Of a DNA stretch of 64,000 nucleotides, positions 3,660-62,520 are shown piece by piece; position 1 is the stretch's first letter; every line of letters begins with the position of its first letter. This DNA comes from Methanoregula boonei 6A8 (lineage in GTDB: Archaea; Halobacteriota; Methanomicrobia; Methanomicrobiales; Methanospirillaceae), in assembly GCF_000017625.1 (NCBI RefSeq), contig NC_009712.1, forward strand, positions 310,001-374,000, written 5' to 3'. The translations under genes and the position numbers were made by a program. The notes under the pieces were generated by a model. It was not told the origin of the DNA. It worked only from the letters and a program-made list of their open reading frames with translations, and did no database searches.

Positions 3660-3772
3660 ACACCCCAAAAGTTTTTTTTAGGCCATACAAACCCGTTGGT
3701 CGGGTGCAGATCGTTTATGGGAAGTAAAACTATTTTTGTGACCTGAGGGGTAAGTTTATCGCTGGAGGTATC

Positions 3773-4081
3773 ATGGTGCGGACTATGTTAAAAAAAGATG
3801 AGAGGGTGCTTATCGTCCCGGCATCCGGCGACAATGAGGGAGTACGCCTTGTTCCGGTGAAAAAAGGGGACCGGGTTGTGCCTGTTCCCACCCGTGACGG
3901 GAGATGGATTACGGTAAAATTATCCCCCTTGAACCGTGGCGATAAGATTGCGGTCGTGACCTTAAGGAACGGGAGAAAAGTGGCCCTGAAACTGGAAGAA
4001 TTTTCTGACGCCGACCTTGAACGCCGGGTTGAACTCGCCGGCGATCTAACCATTGAATACAGGGAAGGCGGAGTTCCCTAA
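3773..4081 (+). CDS. Hypothetical small basic beta-rich protein
   Basis: A 102-residue protein I do not recognise. Alternating hydrophobic and charged residues suggest mainly beta strands (ERVLIVPASG, DRVVPVPTRDGRWITVKLSP, DKIAVVTLRNGRKVALKLEE), in the style of an OB- or SH3-like barrel, with an acidic end. GGAGGT precedes the ATG by about seven bases, which supports translation. It has no signal peptide or cysteines. It stands alone between S17e and a gene-free stretch. Confidence 0.7.
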   Translation: MVRTMLKKDERVLIVPASGDNEGVRLVPVKKGDRVVPVPTRDGRWITVKLSPLNRGDKIAVVTLRNGRKVALKLEEFSDADLERRVELAGDLTIEYREGGVP

Positions 4082-49113: not shown

Positions 49114-49824
49114 TTAGACTGACACGTATGTGTTTACCGTATAATCTGAGTAACTGAACCGGAAGGTACCCGAATCACTTTCCTGGATTGAGGGAATAGT
49201 TGCCCAGCTCTGTGCCAGGAAGTTTGTGTAGCTATGAGTGACTGCATATGCATTTGTCCAGTAGTCAGAATAGGCGAGCCTGTTACCGCCGATATCCTGG
49301 TACCCCATGCTGCCGCCCGGCATGCTAATTGAGACACCGACACCGGATGCGGATACTTGGGATGCTAGGGTAATCTTGTCCGCATAATACGGGCTTGTCC
49401 CCTGCCAATTGGAAAGGAGATTTCCACTTACGTACTTGCTGTAGGGAGATGTCCATCCCCCATCATATGATCCGGTAATAGTAGTCCTCTGGTAGATGGA
49501 ACTGCCAAAGAGCGGCAGGCTGGCGCTGTTCGCACCGGATACCGGAGTTCCGGAGCTTGCCGTAGCAACACTTTTCGTCTTTTTGTTCAGGTTTGTCATC
49601 AGGTGGTCGACGCTTGCCGTCTTGTTGTCAGTTTTTCCAGTGAAGACATAGGTATAGGGATCTGTCTGTATGACAATTCCCTTGAGAGATGAATCGATTA
49701 CAGCGTCAGATGACGCTTGATGGGCATCAGCTGCCTGTATATCCGCCGCGTTCACCATCGGTACCATCGCCATCGCCGCCAGCAGCAATGCCAGCAGCAT
49801 GACGCCAGTTTTCAATGTTTTCAT
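49114..49824 (-). CDS. Exported protein of the shared-leader family (A)
   Basis: A 236-residue protein from ATG 49824, with AAAGGAGG upstream. Signal peptide MKTLKTGVMLLALLLAAMAM then VPMVNA-AD. The mature part is Ser/Thr/Tyr-rich and probably beta (SGAN SASLPLFGSSIYQ; TITGSYDGGWTSPYSKYVSG; SYTNFLAQSWATIPSIQESD). I do not recognise the fold. The signal peptide is almost identical to those of genes B and C, although the mature parts differ. It heads an operon with the toroid protein. Confidence 0.8.
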   Translation of the reverse strand: MKTLKTGVMLLALLLAAMAMVPMVNAADIQAADAHQASSDAVIDSSLKGIVIQTDPYTYVFTGKTDNKTASVDHLMTNLNKKTKSVATASSGTPVSGANSASLPLFGSSIYQRTTITGSYDGGWTSPYSKYVSGNLLSNWQGTSPYYADKITLASQVSASGVGVSISMPGGSMGYQDIGGNRLAYSDYWTNAYAVTHSYTNFLAQSWATIPSIQESDSGTFRFSYSDYTVNTYVSV

Positions 49825-49843
49825 GTTTCCGTTCCTCCTTTTG

Positions 49844-49901
49844 CTCCGCTCGGAGGGCATGGGAAAACCTTCATAGGATCAGGGGGGAATAATCCCATGC
49901 C
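49844..49901 (-). promoter_or_regulatory. Two hairpins in the leader of gene A, one beside the RBS
   Basis: CTCCG-CT-CGGAG (49844-49855) lies just upstream of AAAGGAGG. GGCATGGGA (49856-49864) pairs perfectly with TCCCATGCC (49893-49901). Both are kept in gene B (53336-53392). They could control access of the ribosome. Confidence 0.55.
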
Positions 49902-49961
49902 TGCGGGCGGGACCGGGTCCAGCCGCAATTCGACGTGGGGCGGGCCCGACCTCTTGATTGT

Positions 49962-49983
49962 GGGACAACCCCCCGGCTGTCCA
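49962..49983 (-). promoter_or_regulatory. 5'-end hairpin of gene A transcript
   Basis: GGACAACC (49963-49970) pairs with GGCTGTCC (49975-49982). In message sense GGACAGCC-loop-GGTTGTCC, closing with one G-U pair. It starts about 26 bp after the TATA box, the expected transcript 5' end. Also seen at 53457, 57369 and 61464. Confidence 0.6.
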
Positions 49984-50007
49984 CGCTTGTGCGATTCGCG
50001 ACGGCAG

Positions 50008-50036
50008 ATATAAGGATTCTAACGCGTACGTCTACC
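50008..50036 (-). promoter_or_regulatory. Shared upstream box with TATA, copy A
   Basis: In message sense GGTAGACGTACGCGTTAGAA followed by TCC and TTATAT. The same box with the same spacing precedes five more sites in the window. The position directly before a TATA box fits a transcription-factor (activator or TFB-related) site. Confidence 0.65.
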
Positions 50037-50154
50037 GGAGTCCCGATCGGCAAATGGTGGGGTAGAGCATCGACGAGTGTTATCTAAAAAATCCCCGCCG
50101 CCCAAAGAAACGTATTTCTGGTGAAAAATCCACATAGTCATCAGGTAAGTGTCT

Positions 50155-50313
50155 ATGACATCTGTCATCCATAACCCCGCGATCATACAGGCTTCTGCGG
50201 GAGCGGCAAAGAAAAACCGGGCCAAAAGAAAGATATCCCCACAAGGGATCTTCGGGCTGCTCCCCGACTGGAAGATCGATACGCAGGAATTCCGGGACGA
50301 AATGCGCGATTAG
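50155..50313 (+). CDS. vapB: VapB-type antitoxin (short)
   Basis: A 52-codon gene from ATG 50155 to TAG 50313. The product starts MTSVIHNPAIIQASAGAAKK and ends GIFGLLPDWKIDTQEFRDEM plus RD. The ending G-x-L-x-x-W-x-I-D-T-Q-x-x-x-D-E is common in VapB antitoxins that plug PIN toxins. It stops two bases before the PIN gene start. Confidence 0.72.
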   Translation: MTSVIHNPAIIQASAGAAKKNRAKRKISPQGIFGLLPDWKIDTQEFRDEMRD

Positions 50314-50315
50314 AG

Positions 50316-50690
50316 ATGGCATCTTTTTTTGCGGATTCATACGCACTCATTGAGATTCTCAAAGGAAACGAACGTTACATTCCCTACATTAACGGGAATC
50401 TGGTAACAACAGAGTTCAACATCTGCGAAGTTACATTTGCCGTGTGCAGGGACTACCCGGACAAAACCCGGCAGGTGATGGCCCGTGTCCGAAAGATGGT
50501 CACCCTTCTGTCAACCACGGATGGAGATTATTGCGAGGGTGCGGCCATGAGAAGAAAAACAACGGGTGCCGGCAAAAAACTTTCTACGATCGATTGTGTC
50601 GGCTACGCTGTTTCCCGCCGGCAAGAAATTCCGTTCCTCACGGGGGATCGTGAATTTGAGGATATCGAAGACGTTGAATTCGTCCGGTGA
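50316..50690 (+). CDS. vapC: VapC-type PIN-domain RNase toxin
   Basis: A 124-residue PIN domain: FFADSYALIEILKGNERYIP (first Asp), NLVTTEFNICEVTFAV (Glu), STIDCVGYAVSRRQEIPFLT (Asp) and GDREFEDIEDVEF (final Asp). These match the four acidic positions of PIN RNases. It pairs with the upstream VapB gene (two-base gap). Confidence 0.85.
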   Translation: MASFFADSYALIEILKGNERYIPYINGNLVTTEFNICEVTFAVCRDYPDKTRQVMARVRKMVTLLSTTDGDYCEGAAMRRKTTGAGKKLSTIDCVGYAVSRRQEIPFLTGDREFEDIEDVEFVR

Positions 50691-50860
50691 CCGGGCCTTA
50701 TCCCCTTTCAGGCCGTGGGGGGTATGTCCCTGTTGAAACGTCCCGGAGTTCCCAAGTCTCCTGCCGGCTTCGTACCCCCTGGAGACCATGAAGATTAATA
50801 GACCGGTAGTACAAAGGTAATCATTATGCGAAGACCAGATCGGGACCACGCAGGGAAAAG

Positions 50861-51202
50861 ATGACGCAGGGATCGGCGGACCCCCGGGAGCTCGGCGAGA
50901 TTATCCGGAACATTGTTGCGTGTGCACACCCGGAAAAGATCATCCTTTTCGGCTCCGGGGCACGGGGAGAGATGGGGCCCTCAAGCGATATCGATCTCCT
51001 GGTCATAAAGGACGGGGAATTTGATCCCGGTGCGCTGACCGAAGAGATCTACATGCATCTTGTGGGAATCGGCCGGGCCGTCGATGTCATCGTTATCTCA
51101 TCCCGGGATGCCGAGCGGTACCGCAACTCGCCCTACTTTGTGGTGTACCCGGCATTCCGGCAGGGCACGGAGGTCTACCATGCAGGACAGGCTCTCACCT
51201 GA
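50861..51202 (+). CDS. Minimal nucleotidyltransferase (MNT)
   Basis: A 113-residue MNT with GSGARGEMGPSSDIDLLV (GS-x9-D-x-D). It overlaps the next HEPN gene by 23 bp, the usual MNT-HEPN arrangement. Probable toxin-modifying antitoxin. Confidence 0.88.
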   Translation: MTQGSADPRELGEIIRNIVACAHPEKIILFGSGARGEMGPSSDIDLLVIKDGEFDPGALTEEIYMHLVGIGRAVDVIVISSRDAERYRNSPYFVVYPAFRQGTEVYHAGQALT

Positions 51203-51581
51203 AGATCCGGAAGAATGGCTCAATCGGGCACGCTCCAATCTCGCGATTGCCAAAAACCGGTGTGACGCAGCCATTTACCGGGAAGATCTCTGTTTTAATG
51301 CACAACAGGCCGCCGAGAAAGGATTAAAGGCAGTCTGCATCCGGCACCGGATTGAATTTCCCTACATCCACGATATGGCCGCTCTTGTCACTCTCCTGAT
51401 GAAAAATGGCGTTGCTGTTCCGGAACCGGTAAAGGAAGCAGCAAAACTCACGCGGTTTGCCATTGCCACGCGGTATCCGCATGTTTCGGGACCGGTACGC
51501 GAAGAGGAATACCAGAGGGCTATCGCAATTTCAGGGACGGTTCTTGACTGGTGTGAAGAGGAACTCCGGCATACCGGGTGA
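51180..51581 (+). CDS. HEPN-domain protein
   Basis: A 133-residue HEPN protein of the larger type: EEWLNRARSNLAIAKNRCDA, LCFNAQQAAEKGLKAVCIRH, and HDMAALVTLL. The motif C/A-F-N-A-Q-Q-A-x-E-K-x-L-K-A is diagnostic. Unlike HepT it lacks R-x4-H-x-Y, so activity may be non-RNase. It starts inside the MNT gene. Confidence 0.85.
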   Translation: MQDRLSPEDPEEWLNRARSNLAIAKNRCDAAIYREDLCFNAQQAAEKGLKAVCIRHRIEFPYIHDMAALVTLLMKNGVAVPEPVKEAAKLTRFAIATRYPHVSGPVREEEYQRAIAISGTVLDWCEEELRHTG

Positions 51582-51621
51582 TCTCCTCCTTTCCGGATTG
51601 GATCGCGGTATCCCCTCGTAC

Positions 51622-51955
51622 CACTTCATCCCATCCGGGTTCAAATTGAGCCCGGATTGCCCTTTTCCGGGCCCGTATCGGGCTCCGTTTCCCGGAAAAT
51701 AAATCCAAGCCCAAATAGGCCGTATTTTTGCAATCGGGCGAAATAGAACGTCCTCATAGAAGCTCTTTCCTGCCCTGATCTCACCTCAAACAGGCATTTG
51801 ACCATTCCCGAAAAAAGATGCCGTAGAATCGCGTCTATGGGCCGTTTATGGGCATTATACGGGACTCAAATTTGGCGTATTTCGGCAAATGGGACATTAT
51901 ATTTGCCTTTTTTCGTTTCCTGTGGGATCGGACGGTTTTACGGGCGTATTTTGGA
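51622..51955. repeat. ~340-bp intergenic repeat, copy 3
   Basis: More diverged than copies 1 and 2 but shares TTCATCCCATCCGGG, the hairpin (CGGGCCCG TAT CGGGCTCCG), CCGTATTTTTGCAATCGG, CTCAAATTTGGCGTATTT and GATCGGACGGTTTTACGGG in the same order. It follows the MNT-HEPN pair and its right end provides the last codons of the membrane gene at 51938. Confidence 0.82.
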
Positions 51956-52363
51956 GTTCTCCTGATATCTCTTTATTAGAGCGACAATGAAGAAAGCAAT
52001 TGAAAGGATTGCGAATGCCGCGAGAACCGGTGAAAAACCCTGGTGAGTGTACGACACTTTTTGGATCGTCATAGATGAATTGACAAACAGGAATCCAAAA
52101 TAGACCGCCGTCAATCCCCCGAGTAACGGGTCCATCCGGGGGAATTTAATCAATGCGGCTGCAAGCAGGGCTGCTGCAAGCCACGTTACTCCAAGGGCGA
52201 TCCCGGCCGGAAGCCCGTCGAGTTTTCTCCCAAAAAACCAGGTTTCCCAGTTGATGACAAATGCAAACAAGGTGGCCAGCGCAAAGACTATGAGAAGTCC
52301 AAGCACGCAGTATTTCAAGATTGTTTCGGTTTGTGCGATCATATTTTTGCTCGTCATAATCAT
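51938..52363 (-). CDS. Four-helix membrane protein
   Basis: About 141 residues with four hydrophobic helices (YCVLGLLIVFALATLFAFVI; GIALGVTWLAAALLAAALI; GLTAVYFGFLFVNSS; FSPVLAAFAILSIAFFIVAL) and a basic tail. I start it at ATG 52363; a TTG four codons upstream is possible. It lies about 30 bp after exported protein B, in the same operon. The stop codon TAA lies within repeat copy 3. No family recognised. Confidence 0.68.
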   Translation of the reverse strand: MIMTSKNMIAQTETILKYCVLGLLIVFALATLFAFVINWETWFFGRKLDGLPAGIALGVTWLAAALLAAALIKFPRMDPLLGGLTAVYFGFLFVNSSMTIQKVSYTHQGFSPVLAAFAILSIAFFIVALIKRYQENSKIRP

Positions 52364-52392
52364 CACTGCCGTCAAAAAAATAAATAATATTT

Positions 52393-53316
52393 TTAGTAGG
52401 AATAGGTAATTTTCGCCATATTGGAATTTCTGTCATAGGTGTCCATAGCATGATTCCATACATTGCTTAGGTATATCCGGGTAGACGATCCAAACGGACG
52501 AGTAATACTCCCATGCTGCCCGATAATATATCCGTAGGTATAGCCATTATCCCGGTTGCTGCCAAACTCGATGGTCCCATTCGAATAGACAATAAAACTC
52601 TGAGTATCTTCGATGGTGCCGTAAACTGCCAAACGATACGCATCGTATACTGCATCACTTGAAGCAGAATCGGGTACATCTTCATCCCGAAAATGGCATT
52701 CATAGTACGTATATGACCCGGGATGGGTGTTGTAGATTATACTGTAGAGTTGATTTCCCCCATTTACCGTGTAGGCAATATTATTCCCGTCACGTCCAGT
52801 GCCTCCGTTTACATCCACAGCCACTTGGATGAGGGTGAGTGAATTCGGAAGAGCGGTAAGTTGGAGATTACCTGATTTCATTTGGACGTTATCCGGTTGA
52901 ACTTGTAGTATGCGCATTTGGGTGGCGTTCACTCCCAGTTCTTTCTTACGATTCTCTTGAACGACTTTATTCAGATCTTCTGCAACTATGATCTGTTTTA
53001 CCGTGTCCCGTTGCTTTGCCGAAAGTTGTTGCCCCGTTTTAATTTCAAGAATATCAATAATTGAATCTAGATTTGTCTGATACTTTTTTACCAAGCTACT
53101 AGACAGGTCTTTGTAGTATTGATCATGGGTTGTGATTCTTTCGTTTATGGCCGTGGAGACATTGATCTGGATTTCATTGTGAATCGGTTGATATAAGGAG
53201 ACAATATTTTGATCACTAGTATCTCCTTGTGCCGCGGAATCGTCTGCACTCACCATCGGTACCATCGCCGCCAACAGCAATGCCAGCAGCATGCCGCCAG
53301 TTTTCAATGTTTTCAT
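52393..53316 (-). CDS. Exported protein of the shared-leader family (B)
   Basis: A 307-residue protein from ATG 53316, AAAGGAGG upstream. Signal peptide MKTLKTGGMLLALLLAAMVP then MVSA-DD. A helical part (INERITTHDQYYKDLSSSLV; LSAKQRDTVKQIIVAEDLNK) precedes a beta-rich part (LQLTALPNSLTLIQVAVDVN; SIIYNTHPGSYTYYECHFRD). Family unknown. Promoter, leader and signal peptide match gene A. Confidence 0.78.
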   Translation of the reverse strand: MKTLKTGGMLLALLLAAMVPMVSADDSAAQGDTSDQNIVSLYQPIHNEIQINVSTAINERITTHDQYYKDLSSSLVKKYQTNLDSIIDILEIKTGQQLSAKQRDTVKQIIVAEDLNKVVQENRKKELGVNATQMRILQVQPDNVQMKSGNLQLTALPNSLTLIQVAVDVNGGTGRDGNNIAYTVNGGNQLYSIIYNTHPGSYTYYECHFRDEDVPDSASSDAVYDAYRLAVYGTIEDTQSFIVYSNGTIEFGSNRDNGYTYGYIIGQHGSITRPFGSSTRIYLSNVWNHAMDTYDRNSNMAKITYSY

Positions 53317-53335
53317 TTTTCCATTCCTCCTTTTG

Positions 53336-53392
53336 CTCCGCTCGGAGGGCATGGGAAAACCTTCATAGAATCAGGGGGAATAATCCCATGCC
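53336..53392 (-). promoter_or_regulatory. Two hairpins in the leader of gene B
   Basis: CTCCG-CT-CGGAG (53336-53347) next to the ribosome-binding site and GGCATGGGA/TCCCATGCC (53348-53356 approx. with 53384-53392), as in gene A. Conservation between unlinked mature genes suggests function or a recent copy. Confidence 0.55.
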
Positions 53393-53456
53393 TTCGGGCG
53401 GTCACGGGTTCATTCGGTTTCGCAAAGACTGGGGTGAACCCGAACCTTCATTTTTG

Positions 53457-53476
53457 GGACAACCCCCCGGCTGTCC
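53457..53476 (-). promoter_or_regulatory. 5'-end hairpin of gene B transcript
   Basis: GGACAACC (53457-53464) and GGCTGTCC (53469-53476), the same stem as in gene A, beginning about 26-30 bp downstream of the TATA box. Confidence 0.6.
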
Positions 53477-53501
53477 ACGCTTGTGCGATTCGCGACGGCA
53501 A

Positions 53502-53530
53502 ATATAAGGATTCTAACTCGTACGTCTACC
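53502..53530 (-). promoter_or_regulatory. Shared upstream box with TATA, copy B
   Basis: In message sense GGTAGACGTACGAGTTAGAA, then TCC and TTATAT. One base differs from copy A in the box. Confidence 0.65.
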
Positions 53531-53664
53531 TGTTTTCAGGATCGGCAGAATGCTGGGCGGGAAACAGTAAGAGACGGTTTGCCGGCAGCCCCTGGCCGGG
53601 ATATCCCCGGCAAAAATCCTTATCTCCCGTCCCTTCTTCCTGCCATATCGCTCATATAGGGGAA

Positions 53665-53982
53665 ATGCCCATATCTCCCACTAAGCATATGCAGGACACT
53701 GCCGGGATACTGGACCAGCTGCGGGGCATGAGGCACGAGCTCGAAGAGCAGTACCATGTGAAAAGGATCGGGATCTTTGGCTCGTACGCAAAAAAAGCGC
53801 AGACAGACGAGAGCGATCTCGACCTCGTAGTGGAATTCTCCCGGCCGATCGGGATGCTGGCATTTGTGCACCTCAAAGACCTGCTTTCCCAAAAGTTCAA
53901 TCTCCGGATCGACCTTGTCACACCAGACGGCCTCCACCCGCTCATCCGCGACCGGGTGATGCATGAGGTTGTGTATGCCTGA
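53665..53982 (+). CDS. mntA: MntA-like nucleotidyltransferase
   Basis: A 105-residue MNT: KRIGIFGSYAKKAQTDESDL then DLVVEF (GS-x10-D-x-D) and FNLRIDLVTPDGLHPLIRDR. ATG 53665 has GGGGA upstream; ATG 53689 is an alternative. Stop overlaps the HepT start by 8 bp. Probable antitoxin. Confidence 0.88.
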   Translation: MPISPTKHMQDTAGILDQLRGMRHELEEQYHVKRIGIFGSYAKKAQTDESDLDLVVEFSRPIGMLAFVHLKDLLSQKFNLRIDLVTPDGLHPLIRDRVMHEVVYA

Positions 53983-54319
53983 AAAACGTACTGCTGCGCT
54001 CCTGCTATACGATATTTTCCAGGCTATAGAAAAGATCGAAACATTCTGTGCCGGTTATTCTTTTGATCTGCTCATGGAGGATCAACGCACACAGGATGCC
54101 ATTCTCCGCAATATCCAGATCATTGGCGAAGCTTCTAAGAATCTGCCCCAGGAACTTATTTCCCGCCACCCGGAAGTGGACTGGAGCGGTCTTGCCGGTA
54201 TCCGGGACATTGTTACGCACCGGTATTTCCGGGTAGACTGGAATCTTTTGTGGACCAGCATCCATGAGGAACTGCCGGTGCTTAAGGCTCAGATCGGGAA
54301 ACTCATGAAGGAAGAATAA
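53975..54319 (+). CDS. hepT: HepT-like HEPN RNase toxin
   Basis: A 114-residue HEPN protein starting MPEKRTAALLLYDIFQAIEK with NIQIIGEASKNLPQELISRH and RNase motif GIRDIVTHRYF (R-x4-H-x-Y). Complete, unlike the frameshifted one at 28.2 kb. Confidence 0.9.
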   Translation: MPEKRTAALLLYDIFQAIEKIETFCAGYSFDLLMEDQRTQDAILRNIQIIGEASKNLPQELISRHPEVDWSGLAGIRDIVTHRYFRVDWNLLWTSIHEELPVLKAQIGKLMKEE

Positions 54320-54401
54320 CGGGCCGATGGATGGTACCTTGCTGCAACAAAAGGGAGTCACCGCCAGTACAGGCACCAGGCAAAACCCGGGTGGATCAGC
54401 G

Positions 54402-54677
54402 TTACTTCCCCCGTTTCCTGACGTGGTAATCCGGATCCTTCTTCTCGTAAATCGAGAAGAGTTCAGAAGGATCGATTTCAATGGCCGAACAAATCTTCAA
54501 AATCGTGGAGAAGGTGGGGCTTCGCTTGCCGTTTTCAATGAGACTAATGAATGTCCGATCGAGACCGGTGAGTCTGGCAAGTCTTTCCTGGGATATCTCT
54601 TTGGCTTTTCGTTCTTCCCGGATAATTTTGCCAAAGATCTCTTCTCGTTCCGATGTCACTAGTGAAATCGTTGCCAA
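54402..54677 (-). CDS. XRE-family HTH regulator
   Basis: A 91-residue single-domain regulator: FGKIIREERKAKEISQERLA, LTGLDRTFISLIENGKRSPT, and FSTILKICSAIEIDPSELFS. Typical HTH_3 fold. It lies between two MNT-HEPN pairs. The upstream region holds a perfect 10-bp palindrome over a TATA-like stretch, so it probably represses itself. Confidence 0.9.
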   Translation of the reverse strand: MATISLVTSEREEIFGKIIREERKAKEISQERLARLTGLDRTFISLIENGKRSPTFSTILKICSAIEIDPSELFSIYEKKDPDYHVRKRGK

Positions 54678-54700
54678 GAATGGGGGATGTGTTTATCGCA

Positions 54701-54710
54701 GACTATAGTC
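54701..54710. promoter_or_regulatory. Palindrome upstream of the XRE gene
   Basis: GACTATAGTC is a perfect palindrome 24 bp before the ATG, next to ATAAATTTG (minus strand, about 54711-54720), a TATA-like box. Position suggests an autoregulatory operator. Confidence 0.45.
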
Positions 54711-54745
54711 GACAAATTTATCCGCCCCGCCGGCATATATCTCAT

Positions 54746-54965
54746 CCGGTGTCTGGTGACTCATGTTCGTCAACCCGGATCGATACAGTAATCCCGGGCG
54801 CTTACCCCCCGGCTCCAAAATATCATTCTGGACAAGGGCGCCCGGGTTTTTCCGGAAAAATCTCACCAGCCACCGGAATTTTAAGCACAATGCAAATTCT
54901 CTCTTCAATAACGCCCGGTGCCAGGAAAAAAGATCGGCTGTATCCACCCGCTTTTTAAAGGGTAT
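54746..54965. repeat. Second repeat family, intact copy
   Basis: The continuous version of the element that is split at 46113-46830. It lies 69 bp upstream of a small DNA-binding gene, just as the other lies 85 bp upstream of the AbrB-type gene. An overlapping minus-strand frame (54693-54977) is not credible as a protein. Confidence 0.82.
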
Positions 54966-54992
54966 CCTAAAAAACATCAGAACCGGTAAGGA

Positions 54993-55343
54993 TTAATCCA
55001 CATCCGGCCCCATTGCATCGCAAAGGGATTGGATCTCAGGTTCAAGTTCGGGCAGTTTGTTCTTGATCACATCCCATACAATTTCATAATTGATTGCAAA
55101 ATAGCCGTGGATGACCTTATCGCGGAGCCCGGCCATGAACTTCCATGGGATCTTCGGATTCTCTTTACGGATCCTGTCCGGGACATTCTTTGCAGCTTCA
55201 CCAATGATCTCCAGTGAACGGGTTACCGCGTGTTCAGTTGTTTTATTATTCAGGAGAGATTCATAGGTTATCGTCGGCCGGAGAGAATCCAGATATTCGA
55301 TCTCATCCAGGATATGCTGGAGATATACCCGGTCATCCTTCAA
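54993..55343 (-). CDS. hepT: HepT-like HEPN RNase toxin
   Basis: A 116-residue HEPN protein: MKDDRVYLQHILDEIEYLDS, RSLEIIGEAAKNVPDRIRKE, and motif GLRDKVIHGYF (R-x4-H-x-Y). Overlaps the MNT gene by 11 bp. Complete. Confidence 0.9.
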   Translation of the reverse strand: MKDDRVYLQHILDEIEYLDSLRPTITYESLLNNKTTEHAVTRSLEIIGEAAKNVPDRIRKENPKIPWKFMAGLRDKVIHGYFAINYEIVWDVIKNKLPELEPEIQSLCDAMGPDVD

Positions 55344-55659
55344 TCCAGATCACCTCGCGTTCAACCCGGGACCGGATATATTTGTCAATACTTCCCACCG
55401 TCAGGAGATCCACTTTTCTGCCCAGGAGATCTTCAAGAAAATAAACCAACTGCATGAAATTATCAAAGGTTGCCTGCCCGTCGGCAAACTCCACCAGTAT
55501 ATCGACATCGCTGGTACGCTTCTCCTCACTGCGGGCAAAGGATCCGAATATCCCGATTCTTTTTACGCCGAAACGTGAACGGAGTGAGGGTACCGCATGA
55601 CCGAGTCTCATAAATACCGGACTCTTCAGTTTCTTTTGCGGGATTACCTGCGGCACCAT
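55333..55659 (-). CDS. mntA: MntA-like nucleotidyltransferase
   Basis: A 108-residue MNT: RIGIFGSFARSEEKRTSDVD then ILVEF, and FMQLVYFLEDLLGRKVDLLT. The position usually filled by Gly after GSFAR is Ser here. I chose ATG 55659; the frame extension to 55737 lacks similarity. Antitoxin partner of the HepT below it. Confidence 0.88.
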   Translation of the reverse strand: MVPQVIPQKKLKSPVFMRLGHAVPSLRSRFGVKRIGIFGSFARSEEKRTSDVDILVEFADGQATFDNFMQLVYFLEDLLGRKVDLLTVGSIDKYIRSRVEREVIWIEG

Positions 55660-55932
55660 AGTTGTTCTCTTTAGTACCTGTTGTTGGGTAATGGGTATAA
55701 AAAAGTGTATGTGTCTCAACCAAAAACCCGGCAACAATACAGCACCCGGTCATTTTTAAAAAAATCCGTTTCCCAAAAACCTGGTATCTGGAGCGCCAAA
55801 AAACCGGACATATATCTAAAAAATCAGACATTACCGGTAATGACTTGTAGGTGTTCTCCCTCTTCACGTTAGTTCCCATAATGTCCCCAAAGTAAAAACA
55901 CATAAAGAAATTTTATTGGCAGTATCACTCCC

Positions 55933-56754
55933 TCATGGGTTATGTTTAGACGATTGTTCCCGCCAGCTCATCCGGCTGTCCGCGCTCCCGGATGACGCTC
56001 CGGCACCTTCCCCGGTAAACTGCCTGAACACATTCAATCCGGCAGGACAAAAGGTATAGCGGACAGCCTTTCCCTTTTTGCTGGTGGAAATAATCCCGTC
56101 CCCAGTTAATCGCCTCGTGTGCCACGTGATCGACGGGCCGGCAATGCCCACGATCCCGGCGATATCCTTCCTTGAGACCTCGGGAGACGCGGCAAGAATT
56201 TCAAGAATCCTCCTTGTCGTCGGGTTCTGCAGGTGGAAAAAGACCTTCTTTTCAAGCTCGCTGTACCGGCCGTTATTCTCGAAATACCGTAGCGACCTGC
56301 CGCTGCCAAAGGATACAATCCTCCTTTTTGCCTCAAGGATCAGCAGGTGGTACTTCAGGGTGCCTTCCTTTATCCCGGTCATCCGTTCGAGGGCCGTAAA
56401 CCTCACGCCCGGGTTTGCCGCAATGCACGCAAAGATTTCCCGGCGGTTCCGGTTCCATAGGATGGCATTCTGCCCGACCTTCCGGTACCCGAGGGCTGCA
56501 AGAAGTTTCAGGTAAAAGAAGATCTCGACCGGGTAGGCAAGCACCGGGCAAAACGACAGCGCCACAGCAATGAGCATCTCCCGCAGGGTGAGATCGAAGA
56601 ATGATATCGGTACAGGATCCTGGGGCTGACCCTGTACGGCGCCGGCCCCGCCCGGGGCCACGCTGTATCCGCCATAACTGGCGGTAACAGCCGGCACGCA
56701 GGCAAGGGCGATAAAAATAATGAGGGCAACTGCCCTCACCGGCCAGGGTTTCAT
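55933..56754 (-). CDS. Membrane-bound winged-helix regulator
   Basis: A 273-residue protein with a signal-anchor (VALIIFIALACVPAVTASYG), a second hydrophobic helix (MLIAVALSFCPVLAYPVEIF), then two winged-helix domains: about 100-160 (RREIFACIAANPGVRFTALE; TGIKEGTLKYHLLILEAKRR) and 170-240 (TTRRILEILAASPEVSRKDI; AGPSITWHTRRLTGDGIIST). Such membrane regulators are common in methanogens. It lies 45 bp downstream of exported protein gene 56800, whose promoter has the shared box, so it is a candidate regulator of that family. Confidence 0.85.
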   Translation of the reverse strand: MKPWPVRAVALIIFIALACVPAVTASYGGYSVAPGGAGAVQGQPQDPVPISFFDLTLREMLIAVALSFCPVLAYPVEIFFYLKLLAALGYRKVGQNAILWNRNRREIFACIAANPGVRFTALERMTGIKEGTLKYHLLILEAKRRIVSFGSGRSLRYFENNGRYSELEKKVFFHLQNPTTRRILEILAASPEVSRKDIAGIVGIAGPSITWHTRRLTGDGIISTSKKGKAVRYTFCPAGLNVFRQFTGEGAGASSGSADSRMSWREQSSKHNP

Positions 56755-56799
56755 GGATGAATGGTTCTCACGGATGAATATCAGATTTATGGTTTTGTG

Positions 56800-57243
56800 T
56801 TAATACGTGACAAAATTATAACCCTGGATCCCGAGAACGGTCTCCCCGTACACCTTGAACCTCCATGTGCCGGGTGCAATTCCGCCGGTCCTGCTGAATG
56901 TAAGGAAAATTCTCCCATCCTTTACGCTGTCGGAAGCATCGTAATACGGGCCGAGCGTCCCATCCGGGGCGATAACCGAAAGCGAGAGGGAATCGGGGAC
57001 ATATCCCCAGTTGAGGTCAGCGGTAAGGGAGGACTTTCCCGAAGGGACACTGACCGAATACCAGTCCGTTTCCCCCTGGGAAATAGAACCGGCGGTCATG
57101 GGAGACACAACCGCGGGCAGGCGCAGGTTTCCGGCCGGGCTTACGGAATACCCGGCACTTTTGTCGACATCCTGTGCAGAAACTCCCGATATGAGCACGA
57201 TGGCGCAGACCAGGATTGCGAGGGTCGCTACGGATACTTTCAT
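56800..57243 (-). CDS. Exported PPC-like domain protein
   Basis: A 147-residue protein with signal peptide VATLAILVCAIVLISGVSA-QD. The mature part (GSISQGETDWYSVSVPSGKS; LTADLNWGYVPDSLSLSVIA; GIAPGTWRFKVYGETVLGIQ) resembles bacterial pre-peptidase C-terminal (PPC) beta domains. No anchor. Divergent from gene C; both carry the shared box back to back. Likely one operon with the membrane regulator. Confidence 0.82.
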   Translation of the reverse strand: MKVSVATLAILVCAIVLISGVSAQDVDKSAGYSVSPAGNLRLPAVVSPMTAGSISQGETDWYSVSVPSGKSSLTADLNWGYVPDSLSLSVIAPDGTLGPYYDASDSVKDGRIFLTFSRTGGIAPGTWRFKVYGETVLGIQGYNFVTY

Positions 57244-57285
57244 AGTATACCGTTTTAGCGGGTTTTGGAATCCGGCTCTTAACGC

Positions 57286-57346
57286 TTCTAACGCAAGCGT
57301 CTACCGATCAGGAATCCGGTAGACCCGGGCGTTAGAACCGTTATAT
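57286..57346. promoter_or_regulatory. Divergent pair of shared boxes (copies C1 and C2)
   Basis: Left copy: minus sense GGTAGACGCTTGCGTTAGAA (57286-57305), facing the gene at 57243. Right copy: plus sense GGTAGACCCGGGCGTTAGAA then CCG and TTATAT (57318-57346), facing gene C. Together they form a large imperfect inverted repeat with an 11-bp centre. The left copy has only a poor TATA (TTAAG). Confidence 0.65.
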
Positions 57347-57368
57347 CTCCTGAAATGAGATTTCCCGC

Positions 57369-57389
57369 GGGGCAGCCGGGGGTTGTCCC
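57369..57389 (+). promoter_or_regulatory. 5'-end hairpin of gene C transcript
   Basis: GGGGCAGCC (57369-57377), loop GGG, GGTTGTCCC (57381-57389), nine pairs with two G-U. It starts 26 bp after the centre of the TATA box, as in A and B. Confidence 0.6.
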
Positions 57390-57522
57390 AAAATACCGGG
57401 TCTTGCAAGACGACGGACTTTGCCGGGCCCGGCCCCGCTCTCCGTGGCATGAGCACATTATCGTGATTTATGATGATTCGCCATGTCCTTTCGAGCGGAG
57501 CGTATGTAAAAAGGAGGAAAAA

Positions 57523-58722
57523 ATGAAACCCATAAAATACGGCATCATCCTGCTGGCACTGCTGCTGGCAGCGATGGCGATGGTACCGATGGTGAGCGCA
57601 ATGGGAACAGCAATTACTCCGGATGTCGCAACGGCAATAGAGAGTAATTACGTGTCTCCTGATACTGCATTCCAGTCAGCGACCGCGGCCGTAAAAGACT
57701 TTATCGGCAGAAATGCACTTGATGAAAACTGGAATGGTGCAACGGTCAATCCGAAACCAAACATCATCTTTGATGTAAATGGGAAGAAGTTATTTTATTT
57801 ATTCTCCGTGGAGAAAAAAGGAAACCGGATTGGAGAGATCAAAATTGCCGCCAGTAAAGTACTCGGATCATCTGTTGTAACAATCGGATCGGGAGCGCCG
57901 GCAATCGATCTCAAAAATATCCGATCAAAAGCAACAGGAATTCTCAATCAGCAGTACAAGAACGCAAAAATCGATTCGATCGATCTTGTATGCTACAATT
58001 ACCCGAATATAGGGGCAATAATCAGATTCACAGCGGCAGGATCCGGAAGTACTTCCCTGGTAATCGATGCCTATGATTATTCAATTATACCCGCGGCCGG
58101 CCAGGTCTCATTCTATAATGCAATTCCTCCTGCAGATCTGGCAGGACGTGCAGCACGGTGGGATTCCGAGCAGACTGCTCTTAAAACCGTAAGTGCACAA
58201 TCTCTCTCTCCGATGGCAACAGTGACAAAAACGATTAACGGTTTCACTCTTTATCCACAGGAAAGCACAAACTGGTGTAGCTTTGCAACTGCAAAAATGA
58301 TTTCTGCATACTACGGCTATTCACGAACCCAGCGGGGCATTGCAACAACAATGGGTATAGCGAATCCTGATGATGGTGCATCGATCGAGACCACACGCTC
58401 CAACTATTATCTTAATACGATTGCAAACGGCGGGTTGGCTAAAATGGGAACCTCAATCAGCTACACCGGCATGTTCACGTATGATAATATTGTAAGTGAG
58501 ATGAACTCAAATCGCCCGATACACACTGACCGGTATGAGACGTCATCCTATCATGCAAGAGCGATCACAGGATATTCCTATACTACGACGACTCCGGTAT
58601 CACAGTATCTGTACATTTATGATCCGTGGCCAACAACCTCGGGCGCGGTATATTGGGAGAACTGGAATGTCTTCTCGGGACAGCCTAATCCTGTGCACGC
58701 AATCCTTTATGTAAGGAACTAA
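57523..58722 (+). CDS. Exported C39-like cysteine peptidase domain protein (gene C)
   Basis: A 399-residue protein from ATG 57523 with AAAAAGGAGG upstream. Signal peptide MKPIKYGIILLALLLAAMAM then VPMVSA-MG. A region of about 170 residues with pepSY-like strand pattern is followed by a papain/C39-like domain (about 235-395): Cys in ESTNWCSFATAKMISAYYGY, His in SSYHARAITGYS and Asp in IYDPWP. These fit a catalytic Cys-His-Asp set. The substrate is unknown; it may cut surface proteins. Leader differs from A and B but keeps the box, the 5' hairpin and a CTTTCGAGCGGAG block near the RBS. Confidence 0.82.
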   Translation: MKPIKYGIILLALLLAAMAMVPMVSAMGTAITPDVATAIESNYVSPDTAFQSATAAVKDFIGRNALDENWNGATVNPKPNIIFDVNGKKLFYLFSVEKKGNRIGEIKIAASKVLGSSVVTIGSGAPAIDLKNIRSKATGILNQQYKNAKIDSIDLVCYNYPNIGAIIRFTAAGSGSTSLVIDAYDYSIIPAAGQVSFYNAIPPADLAGRAARWDSEQTALKTVSAQSLSPMATVTKTINGFTLYPQESTNWCSFATAKMISAYYGYSRTQRGIATTMGIANPDDGASIETTRSNYYLNTIANGGLAKMGTSISYTGMFTYDNIVSEMNSNRPIHTDRYETSSYHARAITGYSYTTTTPVSQYLYIYDPWPTTSGAVYWENWNVFSGQPNPVHAILYVRN

Positions 58723-58752
58723 TTTATTTTTTTTATTTTTATGGTGTCACCT

Positions 58753-60075
58753 ATGAAAAAGAAAATAACCATAACCGTCCTCTTTGTGATCCTTCTTACA
58801 CTGTTTTGTTCCGCTCCGGTAGTGGGACAATCACGTACATTACAACAAACCAATGATATCCTGCTCCCATTAACCAGTCCAAGTGGTAACCAGTCTCCTC
58901 TGATCCACATCGCAGATAACGGGAACCTTGTAACCGTGAATTACCCTTATGATCCAAATTTTTTCGTATATGACGGGAACGGATCATTCCTCTGGAATGC
59001 CACCTTATCCGCCGAACAATCTCCCTGGATCTCGTCAGTCAGTGTTGCTCCTGACGGGCAGTATCTTATCGTTACCCAGCTTGTGCCTGCCTGTTGCCAT
59101 GGCTCTGTTACAAATACTTCATCAAACAAGGTAATCCTTTTTGACAGGTCCGGTGCGAGATCGTGGGAATATCCTACATACAGCCCGCCGCTCACATCAA
59201 CGATCTCCTACGATAACCAGAATATTTTTATTGGTATGAATGATGGCCGGATCATCAATCTTGATCGCGAAGGCACCGCCTGTTGGACAGCCCGGGTAGA
59301 CGCACCGGTGCTCTCACTCACGACCTCCGCCGACAGTAGCACTATCGTGGCAACAGGGGAGAGTAATTATTATTCTAACAAAATATATGGCGAACCGCTC
59401 AATCCCCATGACCTTTTTGTACTGGACAAAAATGGTACGCTGCTCTGGAATTACCAGACCAGAGGGACGAACACTGCTGCGATCAGTGACGACGGATCGG
59501 TAACCGCCGTCCTGAACGAGCGTAACGGCAACCTTTTGCTGTTTAACCGGACTGGTGGCAGACAGATCGAGCGCTCATTTGCCGGGACACCTTCGGCAAT
59601 TGTTATGTCAGGAGACGCGAATCTGATCGTTGTCCGGACCCTGGAAGGATTTGTATACGGCGTTGATCGCAACGGCTCTATCGTATGGAATGCATCCCTT
59701 GAATCCGGATCGCAGGGAATCGCGATCACCGACACGGGAAACAGTCTGGTTCTCGGGGATGGCAAGGCTATCGCTATGTTCAACATAACCGGGAATCGCC
59801 TGGATGAATATCCCGTTGACAGCGAAGTACGATCCATTGGTGTTTCTCCGGACAGAAAATCCATCATTATCGGAACTGAACAAAACCTGATCGTTATCCC
59901 GGCCATGGAACCGGTTCCCCGTACAGAAAGCACGGCACTTACGCCAATCCAGACCGTGCACGCTTCAGGTCAGGTTCCCCAAACGCCAAAGGAGAGCTCA
60001 GTCTTCCCCATCATCCTGGTCTTTGCAGTGGGTTGTGGTATCGTGATTATGTTAAATCGAAAAGGAAAATTCTGA
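58753..60075 (+). CDS. Exported beta-propeller protein with C-terminal anchor
   Basis: A 440-residue protein. Signal peptide (ITITVLFVILLTLFCSAPVV), then repeated beta units with PQQ/WD-like pattern (LFVLDKNGTLLWNYQTRG; VYGVDRNGSIVWNASLESGS; VILFDRSGARSWEYPTYS), a linker and a C-terminal membrane helix (PIILVFAVGCGIVIML) with a basic end. It is probably a membrane-anchored outside propeller. It follows gene C by 30 bp on the same strand. ATG 58741 is an alternative start. Confidence 0.82.
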   Translation: MKKKITITVLFVILLTLFCSAPVVGQSRTLQQTNDILLPLTSPSGNQSPLIHIADNGNLVTVNYPYDPNFFVYDGNGSFLWNATLSAEQSPWISSVSVAPDGQYLIVTQLVPACCHGSVTNTSSNKVILFDRSGARSWEYPTYSPPLTSTISYDNQNIFIGMNDGRIINLDREGTACWTARVDAPVLSLTTSADSSTIVATGESNYYSNKIYGEPLNPHDLFVLDKNGTLLWNYQTRGTNTAAISDDGSVTAVLNERNGNLLLFNRTGGRQIERSFAGTPSAIVMSGDANLIVVRTLEGFVYGVDRNGSIVWNASLESGSQGIAITDTGNSLVLGDGKAIAMFNITGNRLDEYPVDSEVRSIGVSPDRKSIIIGTEQNLIVIPAMEPVPRTESTALTPIQTVHASGQVPQTPKESSVFPIILVFAVGCGIVIMLNRKGKF

Positions 60076-60258
60076 TGGGTTTTCGGATAATGGAGCGTAA
60101 TTATAAGATCGTCCTGGTTACTCCCGGGTCCCTTATTGGAATTTACCCAAAAACCACACAAGCATTACTCAATATCTCCGGTACAGGACAGCATGACACT
60201 ACCTTCAGGGGCCAATTCGTACAAAATTACCACCTGGATCTAAAACCCGGAGGCTGCT

Positions 60259-60703
60259 ATGAAAAGGAAAAACCCAAAAACATTTTTTAACATAGGTGCA
60301 CTGATTGCCATCTTAATTATTTTCATGGCCGCTGCCGGTTGTGTATCAGAGAATAAAATCAGCAAAGATGAAGCGATCTGCATTGCCCTTACCGACACCA
60401 GAACCATTCAGGCAATGGATAACCGTGCCTATAATGTATGAAGTCAGCACTGCGAATCTGGGTGTTGGCACACAAACGCAGGATAAAGTATACTATATTT
60501 CGATAAAAGTGCTGGATGGCAGCAACAGAAGAGTAAATGTCTTTGTGACCTACGATGGAAAGGTAGCGCTCGTCGATATCCCGTATCCTGTGATAACGCC
60601 TCTTCATTATCCGGCAAATAGCTCCTGGAGTGGTTTTGTCAATAATAATTCTGCGGGCTGTCTGTTACGGGAGATAGCCGGGCCGGGTACGTCCGTTTTT
60701 TAA
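60259..60703 (+). pseudogene. Lipoprotein gene, frameshifted
   Basis: ATG 60259 (GGAGG upstream) encodes a lipoprotein signal: FNIGALIAILIIFMAAAGCV with lipobox A-A-G-C, then KISKDEAICIALTDTRTIQA. The frame ends at TGA 60439-60441, but frame +1 continues sensibly: YEVSTANLGVGTQTQDKVYY, ISIKVLDGSNRRVNVFVTYD, until the stop at 60703. Loss of two bases (AATGTATAT to AATGTAT) near 60436 or a base gain explains it. The whole looks like a PepSY-type lipoprotein. Confidence 0.7.
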
Positions 60704-60769
60704 GGTGGATCTTGCCGGTTGCCTTTCAATTAATCAGTCGTCGATCACGCCGGTTTTCCCGGTAAATCC

Positions 60770-60798
60770 GGTAGATGACTGCGTTAGAACCGTTATAT
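60770..60798 (+). promoter_or_regulatory. Shared upstream box with TATA, copy D
   Basis: GGTAGATGACTGCGTTAGAA, then CCG and TTATAT. It stands about 135 bp before the membrane-protein gene at 60933. Downstream, the leader starts like that of gene C (TATTCCCGCGGG) but the hairpin is decayed. Confidence 0.6.
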
Positions 60799-60932
60799 CC
60801 CCGTAAATAATATTCCCGCGGGCCAGTCAATCGGAGGTACCTGGACGAATGATCTCACATCATATGTGTGAACCGGATTAAACCATTCAATTTTTTATTT
60901 TCCTTAAACTGTACAAATTTGAGAGGAATCTG

Positions 60933-61301
60933 ATGACAAACAAAGACTTCGTAGGAATACAAAAAGAAAAGATTGCCCCTCTTATATCGGCATTGCTCTG
61001 TGCTGCAGTGGGGTCACTATTCGTGAGTATCGGTCTCCAGAATACAGGTCTCCAAAGATACTATCTCAGTTGGGACAATCCACTTTACCAGATTATGCAT
61101 ATCCTGATTTTTGAACCTCTTGTTCTAGCGAGTCTTGGAGTGGGTTTCGTATTTCTTGTATCTGCGGTTTTTTTTCTCCGGAACGCATTCGAAGGAGAAT
61201 TTTTTGTCGTGGGAAACGCGGACTGGCCAACCGGTTCAAAATTTTGTATTTTCCTTGTGTTGTTATGGATAGCAATCCATGTGATTTCAGGGTTTTTGTA
61301 G
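60933..61301 (+). CDS. Three-helix membrane protein
   Basis: A 122-residue protein with three hydrophobic helices (LISALLCAAVGSLFVSIGL; ILIFEPLVLASLGVGFVFLV; FCIFLVLLWIAIHVISGFL). GAGAGG precedes the ATG. No family recognised. It is the only gene directly downstream of box D, so may belong to the same regulon. Confidence 0.65.
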   Translation: MTNKDFVGIQKEKIAPLISALLCAAVGSLFVSIGLQNTGLQRYYLSWDNPLYQIMHILIFEPLVLASLGVGFVFLVSAVFFLRNAFEGEFFVVGNADWPTGSKFCIFLVLLWIAIHVISGFL

Positions 61302-61409
61302 TCATACTGGAATCCTTTGCACAAGAAAAATAACTGGCTGCATATTTCTTACGGTCACTATGCAAGAGAGGACTGGTCTCATTTTGCCCTTTTTAGGCAT
61401 CCTGTTTTT

Positions 61410-61482
61410 GGTAGACGCGAGCGTTAGAATCGATATATATCGCAGAATAAAATCCCCATTCGTGGACAGCCGGGGGTTGTCC
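61410..61482 (+). promoter_or_regulatory. Shared upstream box E with TATA and 5' hairpin
   Basis: GGTAGACGCGAGCGTTAGAA, then TCG and ATATATAT (61433-61440), and 27 bp further on the hairpin GGACAGCC (61464-61471), GGG, GGTTGTCC (61475-61482). This is a full promoter/hairpin set without a following exported-protein gene, so it may be an orphan left by a deletion or it may make an RNA. Confidence 0.6.
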
Positions 61483-61556
61483 CGTAAATGCATGAACGGG
61501 TTTATCCAGGTGACGAACTGGATCGGACCCGGTCCGCCCGCGGATACATGATAATT

Positions 61557-61845
61557 TCACTTACCATAGTTTTTTGAAATTTTCTCGCTTCCCGGGCCGA
61601 CAATAAAGGAAGTGATAGCATAGGATCCATGCACATAAGACAGGATGGCATTGACGTTTCCCGGAAGGATGCCATCAAGGTTAGCAAAGAAGAACAACGG
61701 TTTGCCCAGGACCGGATCGTACTCCGGAGGACGGCGATACCGGGAACCGGTGTCCGGATATCCTCCCAAAAGAGACCCGGCAGGAATGGTGATGGCAATT
61801 TTTCGGGAACTGCCGGTATATCGCCCGGTACCCGGAGGCAGGCAT
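61557..61845 (-). pseudogene. Possible remnant of an exported protein
   Basis: A minus-strand frame ends with KIAITIPAGSLLGGYPDTGS, then LGKPLFFFANLDGILPGNVN and AILSYVHGSYAITSFIVGPG. The alternating hydrophobic residues are protein-like, yet the N-terminal part is basic and cysteine-rich and overlaps the gene at 61850 on the other strand. It could be the 3' end of a lost gene; weak evidence. Confidence 0.25.
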
Positions 61846-61849
61846 AAAG

Positions 61850-62119
61850 ATGGCGAAGAGTAAATCCGTGACAGAGAGCGAAATCCCGCTCTACCTCCTG
61901 CCCCGGGCACTCGCCCACCAGATCAACAGGATAGGTGACTCCGTATATCGGATCAGCGTGAAACGCACGCACTGGCACCATTACAACATCTCGGTCCGGA
62001 CACGATCCCTGCCAAAGGAACTCGCCCCGGGGAGTGGTACGGGACCGGCACATTCCGGGCATCCCCCAAAGGAATACCGGAATGATGACGGTACACCGGA
62101 TCCGGGATGTGAGGCATGA
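61850..62119 (+). CDS. Hypothetical basic protein
   Basis: An 89-residue protein (SEIPLYLLPRALAHQINRIG; YRISVKRTHWHHYNISVRTR). GGAGG lies 12 bp before ATG 61850. Overlaps the next gene by 4 bp (ATGA), so the two are coupled. No family recognised. The last 40 residues are probably disordered. Confidence 0.55.
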   Translation: MAKSKSVTESEIPLYLLPRALAHQINRIGDSVYRISVKRTHWHHYNISVRTRSLPKELAPGSGTGPAHSGHPPKEYRNDDGTPDPGCEA

Positions 62120-62520
62120 AACGGGGCTCGCCTCCGTACCGGGCCCTCTCTGACGCTCTTCCCATTGCACGCAGGCGCGGCACAACCCAGGCCGCGGTGC
62201 GTGCCCCGGAAAACCTGTATGATTTTACGATCGTCTCGGCAATCCCTCTCGCATTTGTACGTGTCACCTATTGTTCACGGATTCATGCACCGGCCGCAGA
62301 GCTCGTAAACGAGTTCCGGGACGAGCTTTTCAGGCTCGGCCGGATCCCGGTGCATACGGACATTTCGCGTGAACTCTGGCTCCGCTCACGGCATGGCACG
62401 TGGCGGTTCTTACGCCTCACGCCAGACTCTCTTATCGAGCTCGGGCAGGACGGCATGCTCCTCTCCGGGGGAAACGCGGCAAAAAACCTGTACAGCCGGG
62501 AAAAAGTAATTTTTTCCTAA
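62116..62520 (+). CDS. Hypothetical protein, possibly nuclease-like
   Basis: A 134-residue protein: basic N-terminus (ALPIARRRGTTQAAVRAPEN), then an alternating segment (YDFTIVSAIPLAFVRVTYCS) and HTDISRELWLRSRHGTWRFL. I recall similar uncharacterised proteins in Methanomicrobiales but can give no function. The R-x-x-x-E-L-W-x-R pattern recalls nucleic-acid-binding proteins; weak. Confidence 0.65.
   Translation: MKRGSPPYRALSDALPIARRRGTTQAAVRAPENLYDFTIVSAIPLAFVRVTYCSRIHAPAAELVNEFRDELFRLGRIPVHTDISRELWLRSRHGTWRFLRLTPDSLIELGQDGMLLSGGNAAKNLYSREKVIFS

Follow-up and report, generated by a model that had tools for sequence, protein, structure and literature searches.

The 64-kb window analysed here, bases 310001-374000 of the closed, 2,542,943-bp genome of Methanoregula boonei 6A8, raises the question of whether a promoter box and a hairpin that recur within it mark a regulon of exported-protein operons under both transcriptional and RNA-level control. 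Comparative genomics supports this reading, which was put forward in a first-pass annotation of the DNA and in which both control functions are still putative, because the box is unique to its promoters, recurs in other species and has a divergently encoded regulator beside it, and because the RNA to which the hairpin belongs covaries. The reading is refined in three respects: the hairpin is one of three stems of a leader RNA, the box is specific to one gene cluster, and one of the four operons with a leader, that of the box at 61410, encodes no exported protein. Structured cis-acting RNAs known in archaea are few, and in this domain we know of none that is the hallmark of an entire class of exported proteins.

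A promoter box confined to one cluster

Searched with up to three mismatches, the box pattern GGTAGACGnnnGCGTTAGAA has exactly six matches in the window, each with zero or one mismatch, while shuffled versions of the window gave 0.05 matches on average and none of them reached six. Across the whole genome, at up to two mismatches, the same six boxes are the sole matches, all inside 11 kb, and the reversed pattern, scanned as a control, has none. All six boxes of the first-pass annotation are present, accounting for 6/6 of the genome matches, and the genome-wide search that it had suggested as a check places them at these six promoters only. Four of its coordinates were correct; the other two, 50008 and 53502, are those of the TATA boxes of two minus-strand sites. 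The possibility that the box is a dispersed repeat was rejected on its genome-wide confinement to these promoters, and the same idea for the hairpin was rejected, matches to the hairpin pattern elsewhere in the genome being weak noise.

Two minus-strand copies of this type-A box, at 50017-50036 (TATA box 50008-50013) and, with one mismatch, at 53511-53530 (TATA box 53502-53507), belong to the exported-protein genes 49114-49824 and 52393-53316, respectively. The third minus-strand copy, at 57286-57305, belongs to a regulator operon and is the divergent partner of the plus-strand copy at 57318-57337 (TATA box 57341-57346; 32 bp from start to start), which belongs to the gene of a C39-peptidase-like exported protein. 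The remaining plus-strand copies lie at 60770-60789 (one mismatch; TATA box 60793-60798) and 61410-61429 (TATA-like element 61434-61440). Box and RNA are separable, since two of the six boxes, 57286(-) and 60770(+), stand without a recognisable leader RNA. The former, which lacks the hairpin and has a weak TATA-like element (GTTAAG), probably starts an almost leaderless transcript. At 60770-60933 box and TATA box are intact and the leader is missing or decayed, leaving a box-only promoter ahead of a 122-aa membrane protein (60933-61301, plus strand). Interspersed between the box genes is a dense set of toxin-antitoxin-like modules, consisting of a PIN-domain ORF and three nucleotidyltransferase-HEPN/HepT pairs (50316-50690, 50861-51581, 53668-54319 and 54993-55737).

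A three-stem leader RNA

At four of the six box sites a hairpin of the form GGACAGCC-loop-GGTTGTCC begins 23-25 nt past the end of the TATA box, at the predicted +1 (49963-49982 and 53457-53476 on the minus strand, 57370-57388 and 61464-61482 on the plus strand). Its presence at four sites and its position at the predicted transcript 5' end are as first described. The G-U variation reported for the stem comes down, in the window, to one A-to-G change, by which an A-U pair of the third copy becomes G-U, and which by itself is no structural evidence. The compensatory changes come from other genomes, through the covariance analysis that had been proposed.

This hairpin forms stem P1, the 5'-most of three stems (P1, P2 and P3) in a leader RNA that measures about 140 nt and ends near the ribosome-binding site. 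Our covariance model R1 recognises four copies in the window, three of which were in its training set: copy 1 at 49843-49984 on the minus strand (126.6 bits, E 1.6e-31), copy 2 at 53335-53478 on the same strand (105.3 bits) and copy 3 at 57368-57501 on the plus strand (60.9 bits, E 2.3e-14). Copy 4, at 61462-61602 on the plus strand (62.5 bits, E 8.7e-15), was outside the training set and represents a variant class that occurs at cluster ends.

With up to two mismatches, the hairpin sequence also occurs in some ten further genomes of the genus, where many clusters contain it and a single cluster often has several copies. Among 58 such sites that were read, the position behind the TATA box is kept and the stem bases change in pairs, the paired variants including GGACAGCC/GGTTGTCC, GGACAGCC/GGCTGTCC, GGACGACC/GGTCGTTC and GGACAACC/GGTTGTCC; in more distant versions the letters differ and the hairpin remains, as in GGAGATC-GAAA-GGATCTCC. 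The TATA box lies at a nearly constant -30 to -24 relative to P1, and the start carries a conserved (C/T)GT|GG (92 leaders). Alignment down to the start codon revealed that P2 and P3 are common to nearly all leaders. When the structure was drawn by hand for 35 leaders, both-side changes were seen in 22 of 44 pairs, none of 500 shuffles came up to these figures, and a one-base shift of the partner lowered the paired cells from 85% to 40-50%. In the larger alignment A3, with 131 distinct model rows, none of the 44 pairs is without both-side changes, which fill 564 cells (205 +/- 13 when shuffled and 82-159 when slid); these counts are inflated by the fitting of the pairs to the model, which makes the 35-leader figure the safer one. 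A hairpin of at least 6 bp that begins no more than 3 nt from the 5' end is formed by 76 of 103 distinct sequences, as compared to 32 when shuffled, and one well-scoring leader copy gives the consensus structure when folded alone. The minimum-energy folds of two window copies differ from the consensus, and one of them is no more stable than its shuffles.

Judged by comparison of sequences, then, the leader has the conserved fold and the compensatory changes expected of a cis-acting structured leader RNA, and it would lie between the predicted transcript start and the start codon of one class of genes. Two other roles were considered and rejected. The hairpin is not a terminator, as it sits at the transcript start and has no U-run, and the short upstream ORF suggested by AUGAA in the P3 loop of 54 of 112 leaders has a random frame relative to the main ORF (19/16/19). 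At loci L102 and L109 (genomes G181 and G193) some leaders of one cluster type keep P1 with changed P2 and P3 and score 30-45 bits; these are perhaps a subclass.

Genes behind the leaders

Copy 1 precedes a 236-aa exported protein without a Pfam family (49114-49824, minus strand), with the signal peptide MKTLKTGVMLLALLLAAMAMVPMVNA, and copy 2 a 307-aa exported protein (52393-53316, minus strand) whose signal peptide is almost identical to it. Behind copy 3 is a 399-aa exported protein with a Peptidase_C39_2 domain (57523-58722, plus strand; PF13529, E 3.8e-20), followed by the gene of an exported protein that matches PQQ_2-like beta-propeller profiles (58753-60075, plus strand) and probably belongs to the same operon. 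The original claim that the downstream genes encode secreted or membrane proteins holds for 49114-49824, 52393-53316 and 57523-58722, and fails for the operon of the 61410 box, where the first conserved gene (61850, 89 aa) begins about 390 nt away. Copy 4 stands there ahead of two conserved, non-exported genes of 89 and 134 aa (61850-62520, plus strand), an arrangement that is conserved at eight loci, all at cluster ends (the window, L049, L104, L108, L110, L112, L116 and L121). The 89-aa protein has basic stretches and the 134-aa protein a REL(W)LRSRHGTWRFFR-like motif, and neither has a Pfam family; the two are a candidate regulatory pair of the system.

Over the 128 leaders examined, an ORF with a hydrophobic N-terminus follows 99 of the 112 that have a scorable gene (16 of 18 outside the genus), as compared to 17% of ORFs at random positions in the same loci, and the median distance from P1 to the start codon is 163 nt. 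The signal peptides conform to the consensus LLALLLAAMAMVPxVSA. The mature parts, by contrast, are mostly unrelated: 81 of the 99 are different by a rough 4-mer redundancy filter, and the mean column identity over 72 proteins is 9%. A minority have Pfam matches (C39 peptidase-like, DUF6345, reprolysin-like, PKD and transglutaminase-like), and NCBIfam gave the exported proteins no names above cut-off. A shared leader and similar signal peptides before unrelated mature parts indicate that promoter, leader RNA and signal peptide form one 5' module, which has been joined to varied exported proteins.

The regulator operon and its boxes

The minus-strand operon that diverges from the leader promoter of copy 3 begins with an exported, 147-aa PPC-domain protein (56800-57243; PF04151, E 1.5e-8) and continues with a membrane-anchored regulator (55933-56754). 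The latter consists of a predicted transmembrane helix (residues 4-26), a loop, a helix (57-98) and two winged helix-turn-helix domains, both of which are mostly above pLDDT 90 in the AlphaFold model and give ArsR-like fold matches. Matches to PF13412, PF24266 and PF12840 above the curated cut-offs place these domains with the ArsR/HVO_0163 type; the NCBIfam ArsR/SmtB model stays below its own cut-off. The protein is thus predicted to unite a membrane anchor and a DNA-binding domain, and would in this be ArnR-like in kind.

An operon of the same two genes, for an exported PPC-domain protein and a two-transmembrane, double-winged-helix regulator, stands beside several clusters, divergent from a leader promoter, and the PPC-domain partner is conserved with the regulator. 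Five complete genomes contain 23 regulator homologs, of which 6 have a leader within 2.5 kb, about 0.4 being expected. None of seven is near a leader in the complete genomes G020 and G017, and some clusters have no adjacent regulator. The divergent box pair 57286(-)/57318(+) is also present, identically spaced and between the same two operons, in four further species or genomes. Clusters elsewhere carry a different box at the same position (e.g., GTAAAGTTTTGACCGACAAATCG, GTAGAGACTTTGGACAGAAATCG and TGACGAATTTTGGCACATAAATC), which abuts the A-rich BRE on its upstream side or overlaps with it, beside the TATA box. The box is specific to one cluster, while the leader RNA is common to many clusters with other boxes. 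Box similarity and regulator similarity are correlated among 16 loci (Mantel r 0.73, p 1e-4) and also after near-duplicates were thinned to ten loci (r 0.55, p 0.004). A long inverted repeat that is almost perfect, GGCGTTTGGCTAAGTGTTGTACAATACTTAGCCAAACGCC, lies in the divergent promoter of the regulator in genome G183 (locus L134, around 3710-3850).

Distribution

Model R1 has matches in 43 of 232 Methanomicrobiales genomes, including 23 of 39 within the genus, and these represent 11 genera of several families. Among the matches listed, the largest number of copies in one genome is at least 14, per-genome counts being lower bounds, since no more than 14 candidates per genome were scored. In a 295-genome sample of the phylum no leader match was found outside the order, all 11 genomes with matches falling inside it. 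The genome studied here has, in addition to the four copies in the window, a fifth, weak one at 1,460,538. Leaders of one cluster are slightly more alike in sequence than leaders of different clusters, a pattern that spread of copies by duplication would produce. No Rfam 15 family reached its gathering score in the window, and none matched up to E 1 in four leader-rich loci; no description of the RNA was found in the open-access literature searched, which leaves out most subscription papers.

A probable two-layer system and its alternatives

We consider it likely that expression of these genes is controlled in two layers, by cluster-specific membrane regulators at transcription and by the common structured leader thereafter. 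In the first layer, a membrane-anchored, one-component winged-helix regulator would bind the box of its own cluster just upstream of the BRE and TATA box, a pairing suggested by linkage and co-variation, and would control the genes for exported proteins around it as well as the divergent operon in which it is itself encoded. From a site next to the BRE/TATA it would probably act as an activator, in the manner described for EarA (PMC13286277) and, in kind, for ArnR (PMC6396743). The transcript would then start at or within 2 nt of P1. In the second layer, it would carry the P1-P2-P3 leader, ending shortly before the Shine-Dalgarno sequence, and the leader would act post-transcriptionally. Because clusters with different boxes and unrelated mature proteins use one type of RNA, its role is probably common to the exported class; our first choice is that it would protect the 5' end and keep the ribosome-binding site open, perhaps aided by a protein bound to it.

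The leader might instead be a switch, either a riboswitch or an RNA thermometer, that responds to a ligand or to temperature by altering translation and is not a constitutive stabiliser. The conserved unpaired bases of the P2 loop (CGAA), and of P1 and P3, would suit such a device, as would the competing folds seen in two window copies only, where the G-run of P1 pairs with the C-run of P3, and methanogens have been reported to use structured 5' UTRs in the cold response (PMC5378194). Even so, no conserved, mutually exclusive stem was found, and the downstream genes have a location (export) and not a pathway in common. In some copies the Shine-Dalgarno sequence might be paired by CCUCC of P3, but this CCUCC/GGAGG pairing is not conserved across leader types, for which reason sequestration as a general switch was rejected. 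All in all we regard a switch as unlikely.

An explanation that we judge improbable to a similar degree concerns the first layer, and has the boxes read by a global factor, independently of the adjacent membrane regulator. The boxes do have a common layout (GTA...GACAGAAA adjoining the TATA box), and genome G006 contains a perfect type-A box without a close type-A regulator. Against a global reader, the boxes differ by cluster and follow regulator similarity, and in several cluster types the regulator's own intergenic region carries the cluster's box as an inverted pair. Lower in our estimation, and rather doubtful, is the idea that the leader is an element for mRNA targeting or export, dedicated to one class of exported proteins, moving with the signal peptide as a module open to attachment to new mature proteins, and causing the mRNA to be delivered to, or translated at, the membrane.

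It is very improbable that P1 is a DNA operator bound by a repressor at the start site and not an RNA hairpin, although it is near-palindromic and placed exactly where archaeal repressors act: among the window copies its loop length is 3 or 4, G-U pairs are retained, its pairs change on both sides, and P2 and P3 covary as well inside the transcript. We give equally little credence to the view that the conservation is a trace of recent tandem duplication and gene conversion of the 5' module around a functionless RNA, for although copies 1 and 2 are near-identical in their promoters and signal peptides and over a large part of the leader, and copies within clusters are very similar, there are compensatory changes in all helices, diverged leaders in several families of the order, and leaders retained before unrelated mature proteins.

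Relation to known systems

The preferred two-layer reading has partial counterparts elsewhere. ArnR and ArnR1 of Sulfolobus acidocaldarius are membrane-anchored, one-component HTH regulators that act on promoter boxes of surface structures (PMC6396743), and the regulator described here, with its predicted anchor, is of this type and would likewise act on promoter boxes. ArnR, however, has an N-terminal HTH, a HAMP and sensor domain and C-terminal transmembrane helices (PMC6396743), whereas the protein studied here has an N-terminal transmembrane part, two C-terminal winged helices and a co-encoded PPC protein; this reversed domain order rules out membership in the ArnR family proper as defined in that work (PMC6396743). 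ArnR acts, moreover, on archaellum promoters, which have no shared leader RNA. EarA of Methanococcus maripaludis is a winged-helix activator that binds upstream of the archaellum promoter, and BRE changes bypass the need for it (cited in PMC13286277). The protein type and the site upstream of the promoter are similar; the differences are that EarA serves archaellum genes and that no membrane anchor is described for it there, while here the boxes are many and specific to their clusters.

Methanogen mRNAs such as those of mtaA and mtaC have long 5' UTRs, which have been reported to contribute to transcript stability (PMC5378194), and the leaders resemble them in length of 5' UTR; those UTRs belong, however, to individual genes and are not linked by a covarying RNA family that heads the transcripts of an entire protein class. 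With the cis-regulatory leaders and riboswitches of Rfam our RNA shares covarying multiple stems between transcript start and ribosome-binding site, and it differs in having no Rfam 15 match, in its link to export as opposed to one metabolic pathway, and in its many copies per genome. By analogy, the system would work as if a structured 5' UTR and a one-component regulator in the membrane had been brought together.

One RNA of about 140 nt, present in at least 14 copies in some genomes, is joined to a conserved signal peptide before many unrelated mature proteins, and transcription looks to be divided between membrane regulators that work in parallel and have a box apiece. If the reading is right, the system would provide a new RNA family, supply paralogous regulator-operator pairs in which the divergence of DNA specificity may be followed, and offer a handle on the control of secretion in methanogens.
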